64,000 nt of DNA, from positions 1 to 64,000 of the forward strand of contig CALZGM010000020.1 in assembly GCA_945787015.1 (NCBI GenBank), read 5' to 3'. The position numbers and the translations under genes are program-made. Origin of the DNA: an uncultured Roseburia sp. GTDB taxonomy: Bacteria; Bacillota; Clostridia; Lachnospirales; Lachnospiraceae. The notes under the pieces are model-generated. The model did not search any database. It was not told the origin of the DNA and was given only the letters and a program-made list of their open reading frames with translations. Positions 45,445 to 53,680 of this stretch are shown piece by piece. Positions within the stretch are counted from its first letter, which is position 1. Every line of letters starts with the position of its first letter.

Positions 45445-45517
45445 GCGCGAGTGGCTCAGTTGGTGGAGCACGACCTTGCCAAGGTCGGGGTCGCGGGTTC
45501 GAGTCCCGTCTCGCGCT
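45445..45517 (+). tRNA. tRNA-Gly(GCC), copy 1
   Basis: 73 nt. The acceptor GCGCGAG pairs with CTCGCGC, the D-arm, T-arm (GGTTCGAGTCC) and anticodon loop CTTGCCAAG (anticodon GCC) are all present. The 3' CCA is not encoded. Confidence 0.97.
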
Positions 45518-45562: not shown

Positions 45563-45635
45563 GCGCGAGTGGCTCAGTTGGTGGAGCACGACCTTGCCAA
45601 GGTCGGGGCCGCGGGTTCGAGTCCCGTCTCGCGCT
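45563..45635 (+). tRNA. tRNA-Gly(GCC), copy 2
   Basis: 73 nt, identical to copy 1 except one base in the variable region (T to C at the position after GGGG). 45-nt spacer between copies; no encoded CCA. Probably one transcript from the promoter at 45388. Confidence 0.97.
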
Positions 45636-51576: not shown

Positions 51577-52257
51577 ATGTTAGGAACGATTGTAAATACG
51601 ACGACTATCATGATAGGAAGTGTGATTGGAAGTGTCGTAAAAAAAGGAATTAATGAGAAATACCAGCAGGCACTATTTAATGCTATGGGACTGGCGGCTA
51701 CAGCGATTGGTATCAATGCTGTTGTAAACAATATGCCAAAGAGCCGGTATCCGGTTTTATTTATTGTAAGTTTAGCCATCGGTTCCTTGTTTGGAAGCGT
51801 TATGGACATTGACGGAAAATTTCAGGGACTTGTAGCTAAGTTTTCAAAATCCAATTTAGGTGAGGGACTTGGGACAGGAATTTTACTTTACTGTATTGGT
51901 ACACTATCTATTTTGGGACCGGTAATGAGTGCGGTGTATGGAGATCATACCTATCTGTTTACCAATGCAACACTTGACTTGGTAACATCTATGGTTTTGG
52001 CATCTACTTATGGAATTGGCATGATTTTGGCAGCTCCGGTATTGTTTTGCTGGCAGGGAGTGATTTATTTTGTAGCATCTTATTTGTCTGCGTCTTTTTT
52101 CTCTCAGGATTTGTTGACAGAATTATCGGTTGTCGGAGGTATTTTGATTGCCAGTTCGGGAATTGGGATTTTGAAAATTAAGGATATAAAGACAATGAAT
52201 ATGTTGCCGGCATTGCTGGTGCCGATTATATTCTTTATCATCAAAGGCTTCCTATAA
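51577..52257 (+). CDS. DUF554 family membrane protein (YdfK-like)
   Basis: 226 residues with seven to eight membrane segments; MLGTIVNTTTIMIGSVIGSVVKKGI and GSLFGSVMDIDGKFQGL are DUF554 hallmarks. A transporter of unknown substrate is suggested for the family. It lies 20 nt after ilvN and so may be in the ilv operon. Its stop is 10 nt before the 522-bp palindrome. Confidence 0.87.
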   Translation: MLGTIVNTTTIMIGSVIGSVVKKGINEKYQQALFNAMGLAATAIGINAVVNNMPKSRYPVLFIVSLAIGSLFGSVMDIDGKFQGLVAKFSKSNLGEGLGTGILLYCIGTLSILGPVMSAVYGDHTYLFTNATLDLVTSMVLASTYGIGMILAAPVLFCWQGVIYFVASYLSASFFSQDLLTELSVVGGILIASSGIGILKIKDIKTMNMLPALLVPIIFFIIKGFL

Positions 52258-52266
52258 ACAGGGCCA

Positions 52267-52788
52267 CTGCTAAATTATTTTTGCTTCGTATTATTTTTCA
52301 TTGAAATTTCGTATGTATTTATTTTTCCTTTAGAAAGAAGTTGCTGTCCGTGAAGAAAAACGTGAAATACTACTTTTCTTTCTATGGAAATATGATATTT
52401 TATGTTCGCTAAAGGTTTGACAAAAATAAAATGTCATCCGTATAGATACGGACATCTCCTTTTGCAACTTCCTTAGAAACGCTTGCAGGCTCATTTGGGC
52501 AAAACGTAATCCGGCGGACGACACCCATTTTCGGGAGCCGGATTTTATATCGATTTTGTCAAAATGAGCCTGTTAGCGTTTCTTAGGAAGCTGCAACGGG
52601 ATGTTCGTACTATGCGGATGACATTTTATTTTTGTCAAAGCCGTCAGCGGACACAAAATGTTATTCCATAGAAAGAAAAGAGTATTTCTACGTTTTTCTT
52701 CAAAGAACACAACTTCATTTTCAAAGAAAAATAGATACACACAAAATTTCAGTAAAAAGCTAATACGAAACACAATACAATTTAGCAG
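52267..52788. repeat. 522-bp imperfect palindrome (foldback) in convergent gap
   Basis: The whole gap between DUF554 (+) and PAP2 (-) is one inverted repeat with arms of about 250 bp. The ends are CTGCTAAATT (52267-52276) and AATTTAGCAG (52779-52788). Matched blocks include GAAGAAAAACGT, TTTCTTTCTATGGAA, TTTGACAAAAATAAAATG, CTTCCT.AGAAACGCT and AGGCTCATTT, each found reversed on the other arm. The centre is near 52523-52543. The arms differ by small substitutions and indels, estimated 15-20% by eye. No ORF. It may act as a terminator/RNA hairpin or be a MITE-like foldback. Confidence 0.8.
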
Positions 52789-52797
52789 AATCCTTTT

Positions 52798-53448
52798 TTA
52801 TATCTGCCGCAACCGCTGCACCATATGTTTTTTTCTGGCGTGTACCGGTTGAAGGTAATATACATAACCGATGGTAAATGCTGCCAAGGCAAGCCCTGTA
52901 ACTACATCAAATACAGAATGCTGTTTTAAAAACATCGTTGAAAGGACGATGCTTGTAGATAAGATTCCGGAACCGTAACGAATCAGACGGTTATTTGCAA
53001 AATCATTACAATGCCAGATGACATAGTTGACAGCGATGGAATTATAAACATGAATACTAGGAAACAGATTCGTAGCGGTATCGGTTGCGTAAAGAGTACG
53101 CACCATATCTACAAAAATATTATTATGTTTAAATACGGTAGGCCGTAAGTAATGCCCATTTGGATAGATAGTTGAAACCACCAAAAAGAGCGTCATTCCA
53201 AAGAACAATATTTTGCACAGGTTGAAATATTCCTGCTTATCTTTTATGGCAAAGTAAATAATTGCTGCCGCGATATATACAAACCACAGCAGGTAGGGGA
53301 CAATAAAGTATTCACAAAATGGAATATAATCGTCAAGCGCTACATGCACAATGTGAAAACGTGTGGTTACGGTACGTTCCAAGTATGCAAACCATGGCAA
53401 ATAAAGGAACCAATATAGTTGTAGTAAAAGATGTTTGTACTTTTTCAT
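52798..53448 (-). CDS. PAP2-superfamily membrane phosphatase/transferase
   Basis: About six membrane segments with PAP2 motifs: NGHYLRP-like first motif, FPSIHVYNS (PSxH) and KQHSVFDVVTG (HxxxD). The closest type is inositolphosphorylceramide-synthase-like / lipid phosphatase PAP2. Start at 53448 (MKKYKH) is preferred over GTG at 53457 because of ribosome-site spacing. Likely substrate: polyprenyl or lipid phosphate in the membrane. Monocistronic, convergent with DUF554. Confidence 0.85.
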   Translation of the reverse strand: MKKYKHLLLQLYWFLYLPWFAYLERTVTTRFHIVHVALDDYIPFCEYFIVPYLLWFVYIAAAIIYFAIKDKQEYFNLCKILFFGMTLFLVVSTIYPNGHYLRPTVFKHNNIFVDMVRTLYATDTATNLFPSIHVYNSIAVNYVIWHCNDFANNRLIRYGSGILSTSIVLSTMFLKQHSVFDVVTGLALAAFTIGYVYYLQPVHARKKHMVQRLRQI

Positions 53449-53680
53449 ATTCGTCACACCCTTCTATAAATACGTCTGCGATTATAGCACACGTGATTTA
53501 CTGAAACAATACACTTTTGATTTTCTTAAGAAACCTTCTGAAAATGTTAAGAATTTGTAAAAATTGTAGCAAAAAATTAATTCTTTTGTGGACTTCTGCG
53601 ATTGACAAATGAAGGGGTCTTTTTTACCATATTATTTAAAGAAGAGGAATTTATAAAATGAAATAGAATGTGAGGAAATT

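Follow-up and report, generated by a model that had tools for sequence, protein, structure and literature searches.

What does a palindrome of more than 500 bp do between the ends of two convergent genes? The question is raised by a locus in a 64,000-nucleotide stretch of an uncultured Roseburia genome, the whole of which we call the window (G000 denotes the host genome carrying it, other G numbers denote related genomes, and L numbers denote loci). A sequence-only reading of the window had described a near-complete palindrome with short hairpins in its arms, exactly filling the gap between a DUF554 gene and a PAP2 gene, and had proposed either a foldback mobile element or a long double-stranded RNA that couples the two genes.

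The palindrome and its copies in the host genome

We aligned the two arms with each other and found that they were identical in 211 of 271 columns (78%), or in 84% of the ungapped columns, whereas the best of 200 mononucleotide shuffles reached 52% with the same aligner. The palindrome therefore stands, above the arm identity of about 60% that had been named as its lower limit. The predicted energy of the RNA fold was −266.3 kcal/mol, compared with a shuffle mean of −102.9 (z = −29.9; none of 100 shuffles was as good), the DNA fold gave z = −22.3, and fold energies were extreme on both strands of the element. Complementarity was uneven along the arms: it was highest in the inverted repeat at the core ends (Table 1) and was 76–83% in the other facing segments found. 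Short hairpins were indeed present, one inside the left arm (52437–52452) and one at the tip (52530–52542). The flanking genes are convergent, Pfam confirmed their names, and the interval between them is non-coding; 9 bp are free on either side between the palindrome and the stop codons (52257 and 52798). Our hairpin scan counted loops of 3–8 only, and the candidate terminator end of the element was therefore not listed by it.

Table 1. Parts of the window copy and its flanking genes, in window coordinates.
Feature	Position	Strand	Basis or remark
Complete palindromic element, window copy	52267..52788	.	self alignment, folds, DNA similarity to five other G000 places
Outer left arm	52267..52416	.	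pairs with outer right arm; 48–92% identity per 25-bp bin versus six copies
Core	52417..52641	.	contains blocks CTTAG, CAAAACGTAA, TATATCGATTTTG
Core-end inverted repeat, left	52416..52445	.	97% complementary to 52610–52639
Core-end inverted repeat, right	52610..52639	.	partner of 52416–52445
Outer right arm	52642..52788	.	pairs with outer left arm; 50–92% identity per bin versus six copies
Candidate terminator end: outermost stem end, then T run (GCAGAATCCTTTTTT)	52785..52799	+	overlaps PAP2 stop; read by eye
DUF554 flanking gene (PF04474)	51577..52257	+	ORF and Pfam
PAP2 flanking gene (PF01569)	52798..53457	-	ORF and Pfam

No open reading frame of at least 80 amino acids lies inside the window element. 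Other copies are crossed by stop-to-stop frames of 72–98 amino acids, which look incidental. Being coding-free and inverted repeat throughout, the element resembles MITE and foldback elements in both respects. Promoter-like matches within it were not above those in shuffles (4 versus 2.5, sd 1.7), which rules out a clear internal promoter. A known RNA was also rejected: the Rfam matches in the window were two tRNAs only, both elsewhere, and the element gave no match above the gathering score, five loci being covered by a permissive search. The two tRNA genes (RF00005) are close together, at 45445–45517 and 45563–45635.

A palindrome unique to this locus was ruled out by other copies in G000. 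DNA similarity identified six places with E below 1e-15, the window copy included, and the next-best match had an E of 0.12. The further places are L002 (contig C5), L003 (C9), L004 (C1), L005 (C22) and L010 (C2), and a seventh, L182, downstream of C1:30497, consists of outer arms only. G000 thus carries five full copies, one without the centre (L010) and one arms-only remnant (L182). Window positions 52417–52566 are 100% identical to L002 and L003, and positions 52567–52641 are 88–100% identical per 25-bp bin to the same two copies, which carry a 2-bp insertion there. The core is near-identical in L001–L003, and identity falls at a similar distance on either side, dropping to 48–92% in the outer arms when six copies are compared. 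At different loci, the outer arms share only a skeleton (TATTAT..GAATTTT) and arm-specific bulges, and pairing is kept within each copy; the outer ends, which vary between copies, are the least conserved part of the element. In L004 (about 1414–1439 and 1986–2006) and L010 (about 1415–1430 and 1763–1785), the palindrome reaches into the coding ends of the two flanking genes, taking in their last codons.

Relatives, gene context and element-free sites

A covariance model of the core, built from seven copies, identified relatives in five of 62 genomes of the genus, namely G000 itself, G012, G017, G021 and G048. DNA searches also matched five of the 62; the matches in G010 and G037 were of 22 and 40 bp only, and we rejected them as copies, given that no palindrome of the family was seen around them. 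In a sample of genomes from the family, searched with stricter filters, one of 397 matched, this being the host's own, and none of the 396 others did. The window copy and a G012 copy (L101) had no match among phages and plasmids, and no viral contig was found with two exact patterns, so that a phage- or plasmid-borne element was rejected for these queries.

With E up to 0.01 allowed, 24 distinct places were found in G012, the weakest of them a 56-bp match; eight of the 24 reach contig ends, and pairs of these may be the two halves of one copy. Its core-model matches scored 73–85 bits on one strand, with the other strand not listed at E 0.01, and the G000 copies scored on both strands; the model scores together with shared blocks support a true relationship between the two groups. 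The G012 core is 181–190 bp long; compared with that of L097, it is at least 97.8% identical in all but one of the 11 remaining model matches, the exception being L110 with 93.7%. Its outer helices differ between copies yet match between both arms. Most full-armed G012 copies have their own hairpin at each end with A and T runs, in the form of a putative bidirectional terminator. These end hairpins are both GGGAC/GTCCC in L103, and GGGGC/GCCCC in most other copies. L112 combines two arm types, with mismatches there, which suggests a recombinant between copies. The single match in G021 is weaker (E 4e-8) and lies within a 545-bp palindrome showing the blocks around the core.

Several copies in G012 and G017 are at or near contig ends. 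In G017, pieces of the element occur at or within about 25 bp of the ends of contigs C45, C16, C49, C29, C22 and C54, and the copy number in this genome is therefore probably underestimated. Autonomous half-copies were also considered and rejected: those on C7 and C27, fetched with wider flanks, stop at contig ends.

We also analyzed the genes next to the element. Both neighbors could be read at 23 places, a set that omits contig-end copies, L030, L097, L110 and the core-less L149 and L182 and in which the left neighbor of L151 is uncertain; 17 of these places are convergent, six have genes in the same direction and none is divergent. The background was eight convergent among 85 adjacent ORF pairs, based on simple ORF calls that include the window and six G012 stretches containing or ending in elements. 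Most neighbors are housekeeping genes, such as those for FtsH protease, FtsX permease, MatE, glutamine synthetase, PyrI, NAD synthase, ScpB and others. A transposase next door was rejected, as no transposase, integrase or recombinase family was found in the 44 neighbor proteins scanned (of 46; the two beside L151 were left out), four of which had no family match of any kind. The same FtsX-permease gene precedes the element in two species, at L133 in G012 and at L003 in G000, with different helices, and the gene on the far side also differs (GDPD at L133 and MatE at L003).

Sites without the element were found in relatives. In G017, the PAP2 gene is followed by a short hairpin in place of the palindrome (L056). 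A palindrome-free gap in relatives, combined with the lack of any other copy, had been named as grounds for giving up the sequence-only reading; the former does occur, but other copies exist. At the 3' end of the FtsX-permease gene upstream of L003, the element is present in two of 18 loci (G000 and G012) and other 3' ends in 16, in a survey that took in 18 of the 29 matching genomes. Between this permease gene and MatE, G048 has a short hairpin with both stop codons inside its stem, and a T run accompanies the short hairpin at the L005 locus of G017. Thus, a short hairpin resembling a terminator occupies three orthologous sites that lack the element, in a comparison made between species rather than strains. 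In L153 of G048 (about 2390–2435), both convergent genes have their stop codons inside a 14-bp perfect hairpin stem, and the last codons of the two proteins therefore match. Immediately downstream of the FtsX-permease gene, L155 (G016) and L157 (G015) have a different hairpin with a near-identical loop (CGCTGT.CT.GCG.AAGGC.TC), each loop being carried on a long stem of its own sequence.

Two shorter forms were compared with fuller ones. L010 is without 214 columns of L030 (G048), bounded by GGTTT repeats, and the rest is nearly identical, the palindrome of L030 being uncertain at its contig-start end. L182 is without the core and inner arms of L181 (G048), and has the form of a putative bidirectional terminator. 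Both would be losses from full copies rather than earlier states. The idea that the outer arms are flanking DNA copied at insertion was abandoned, because the shared skeleton and the deletion-like L010 make loss of the tip more likely; the runs of palindrome into coding ends in L004 and L010 are not accounted for by loss of the tip. When the flanks were read by eye, the ends of the element varied and no clear target-site duplication was recognized. The search for other copies and empty sites that had been suggested from the sequence yielded both: copies in G000 and related species, and orthologous gene ends without the element at the L056, permease and L005 loci. This supports a foldback element that is probably mobile, as judged by comparison between species, no insertion having been caught within one species.

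Arms that change in step

We counted pairs in which both sides had changed. In nine G012 copies (alignment A3), 72 of 205 pairs showed such double-sided changes, compared with 23.3 in shuffles (none of 500 as high) and 14–22 in a slid control; in seven copies (A2), the count was 15 of 69, compared with 8.1 in shuffles and 0–2 when slid. The shuffle tests are inflated by relatedness, the slid control is fairer, and the structures counted were derived from the same sequences. Further pair types in A2 were not above the shuffles (25 versus 26.8). Alignment A5 consists of seven G012 copies, and no count was taken from A4, which has some copies on both strands.

If these changes reflected selection on one RNA strand, which favors G.U, then G.U mismatches should exceed A.C mismatches. 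The unbiased count, made by plain arm alignment of nine copies, gave 63 G.U and 60 A.C, and this equality argues against such selection. At pairs with a Watson-Crick majority in eight G012 copies, the counts were 31 and 29 (34 and 38 with L133). Two counts pointed the other way: a wider G012 set gave 32 and 20, and the pairs chosen by RNAalifold in the G000/G048 core gave 24 and 5 cells; an excess obtained with RNAalifold is biased, because it admits G.U and not A.C. The proposed long double-stranded RNA coupling both genes finds no support in the unbiased count, nor in the neighbors of the copies, which are unrelated and mostly housekeeping genes, nor in their placement, as six of 23 copies do not lie between convergent genes.

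The types and positions of the changes were also recorded. Double changes were of transition type in 20 and of transversion type in 15 cases inside the end hairpins of eight G012 copies, in 48 and 29 cases over all nine copies, and in 12 and 5 cases in the G000/G048 core. Among the eight G012 copies, columns varied about equally whether unpaired (11 of 57) or paired (47 of 296), as arm copying predicts; the counts with the ninth copy, L133, which were 21 of 57 and 128 of 296, speak against it. In three type II copies, invariant columns were more frequent among unpaired (78 of 104) than paired positions (140 of 240; p = 0.003), and across the full set of seven copies the counts were 51 of 100 and 104 of 240 (p = 0.23). 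The idea that helices vary while loops stay constant was set aside, since on counting it held for the three type II copies only. Diverged copies keep certain arm-specific mismatches at identical positions (T.T next to CTT; AAAACGTAA opposite ATCGATATAAAA), which argues against pure arm copying, given that it should erase them. On balance, the evidence favors arm-to-arm DNA copying; template switching homogenizes the arms of inverted repeats, according to the available text of PMC8604942 and PMC8794818. In view of the evidence for copying and of the kept mismatches and blocks, we think that both copying and some constraint act.

Possible explanations and known systems

What has to be explained is a multicopy family with gene-end, mostly convergent placement, element-free orthologous sites, tip-less forms and arms in step. 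From these observations we infer the cause of the covariation, the role in termination and the means of movement. In our judgment, this is probably a non-autonomous, non-coding foldback family (MITE- or REPIN-like) of about 0.45–0.6 kb, which settles at gene 3' ends in a few species of the Roseburia group. It would be spread by a putative enzyme acting in trans. Its arms would stay alike and complementary mainly because one is copied onto the other as DNA, through template switching at the hairpin when it is replicated, and some sequence blocks would be under additional constraint. Once in place, it would serve as a bidirectional transcription end, and the tip-less forms would be deletions that leave an ordinary terminator. 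The element sequence does contain the hairpin-then-T-run form of a candidate terminator. The scattered palindromes of about 500 bases thus seem to be small, non-coding mobile elements of a kind not named before, which may also end transcription. Among the open-licence PMC papers listed in our searches, none was found to report this palindrome family.

We also considered that the element might move in folded, single-stranded form, a mode proposed for REPINs and attC sites, with selection on the fold rather than arm copying keeping it complementary and a protein recognizing the conserved internal loops. Several points would fit: diverged groups (G000/G048, G017 and two types of G012 copy) have conserved blocks and mismatches in common although the intervening helices differ, the three type II copies show invariance more often in unpaired than in paired columns, and neither strand is preferred in the unbiased mismatch count. 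However, the type II difference is not significant over all seven copies, and many double changes are of transversion type. In addition, the Y1 transposase domain (PF01797) was found in one G000 gene only (L187, G000:C16:26252-26572), that is, in one of seven genomes searched and one of five carriers, and this gene is not linked to the element: no long palindrome surrounds it, and the only element match near it is weak (score 40, with ten shuffles reaching up to 31). The domain was not found in G012, G017 and G048, genomes that are 68–84% complete, or in G021, which makes a RAYT partner doubtful in G012, the carrier with most copies. We regard movement and selection of this kind as a real possibility, although an unlikely one. 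A related speculation, which we hold to be somewhat less likely still, is mobile DNA inherited as a shape of about 500–600 nt, in which conserved blocks are recognized and free helices differ by copy, both arms being rewritten together, possibly through copying or moving as a folded single strand, so that any copy, on entering a gene pair, finishes as a new bidirectional terminator for it. A functional RNA made from both strands, with a bidirectional terminator and a stable double-stranded RNA or RNase III substrate selected as RNA, would account for the extreme fold energies on both strands, the terminator-like ends, the placement between convergent genes and the G.U excess in two counts (the G000/G048 core and the wider G012 set). 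It seems improbable to us, given that the unbiased count has no such excess, that promoter-like matches are at shuffle level, and that no Rfam family reached the gathering score in the element, the best permissive matches in five loci being two miRNA models (E 0.25 and 0.53) far below it.

A classical MITE of a DDE transposase, with terminal inverted repeats that happen to make up the entire element, would likewise be multicopy, non-coding, palindromic and intergenic, and could explain the highly complementary 30-bp repeat at the core ends. This is a doubtful reading, since the outer ends vary between copies, no target-site duplication was recognized, the neighbors, which are what the scan covered, include no transposase among 44 proteins, and the two half-copies with wider flanks terminate at contig ends. 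Each palindrome might instead have arisen locally, from template switching at a terminator, with a mobile core alone sitting in the tip. The near-identical core of L001–L003 with its symmetrical fall in identity, the outer arms that differ by locus and in places extend over the final codons of both genes (L004), and the G048 element-free site, a hairpin stem holding both stop codons, are consistent with such local birth; but the outer arms look related through their skeleton and arm-specific bulges, and L010 resembles a deletion between short repeats, which makes this quite improbable. Assembly artefact is next to negligible. The G048 contig C302 starts inside a palindrome whose outer arm is perfect, as might result from the assembler, and copies near contig ends in G012 and G017 would agree with it, but six G000 copies, that in the window included, are inside contigs with different genes on either side, and their arms differ at many positions.

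The family provides natural replicate sets of very long hairpins, with 24 places in one genome, contig-end pieces included. Arms that change together without an RNA-type G.U excess in the unbiased count offer a test of DNA copying against selection in long stems. It also suggests mobile palindromes as a possible source of the bidirectional terminators of convergent gene pairs. Although the general view is that long palindromes are unstable, this bacterium offers a setting in which they persist.

Finally, we compared the element with known systems. Integron attC sites keep their structure and extrahelical bases while the stem sequence varies; the likeness lies in the kept structure and variable stem, but attC sites are far shorter and are tied to an integron integrase. 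Intrinsic bidirectional terminators have an A run, a stem and a T run between convergent genes, which is the same layout, but the element has a stem of about 250 bp and belongs to a multicopy sequence family. REPINs are of the order of 100 bp, whereas the element is about 500–600 nt. Both are dispersed and extragenic, and the whole unit is predicted to fold as a hairpin. By analogy, REPINs may be called the nearest system in behavior, compensatory changes included: as described in the available text of PMC3116915, they are REP doublets forming hairpins, are linked to RAYT Y1 transposases, and fold as single-stranded DNA or RNA hairpins in which compensatory changes on both sides are common. 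REPINs have conserved REP sequences at their ends, whereas the ends of the element are its least conserved part, and no two conserved short REP sequences were found there. ERIC, YPAL and other stem-loop families are palindromic intergenic repeats like the element and are taken as mobile (available text of PMC2267715 and PMC2229807). In the stem-loop survey, as far as its available text goes, 67 of 92 models are 31–200 bp and the rest larger, so that most are shorter than the element, in a comparison by size only (PMC2267715). Repeats homogenized by template switching are similar in that their arms are corrected toward each other with multi-base compensatory changes, but this is a mutation process in stems and short repeats, and is not described as a mobile family in the available text (PMC8794818; PMC8604942). 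Palindromic non-autonomous repeats are thus known, and what is new in this family is its unusual length, its wholly palindromic build, its place at convergent gene ends and its arms that change together.
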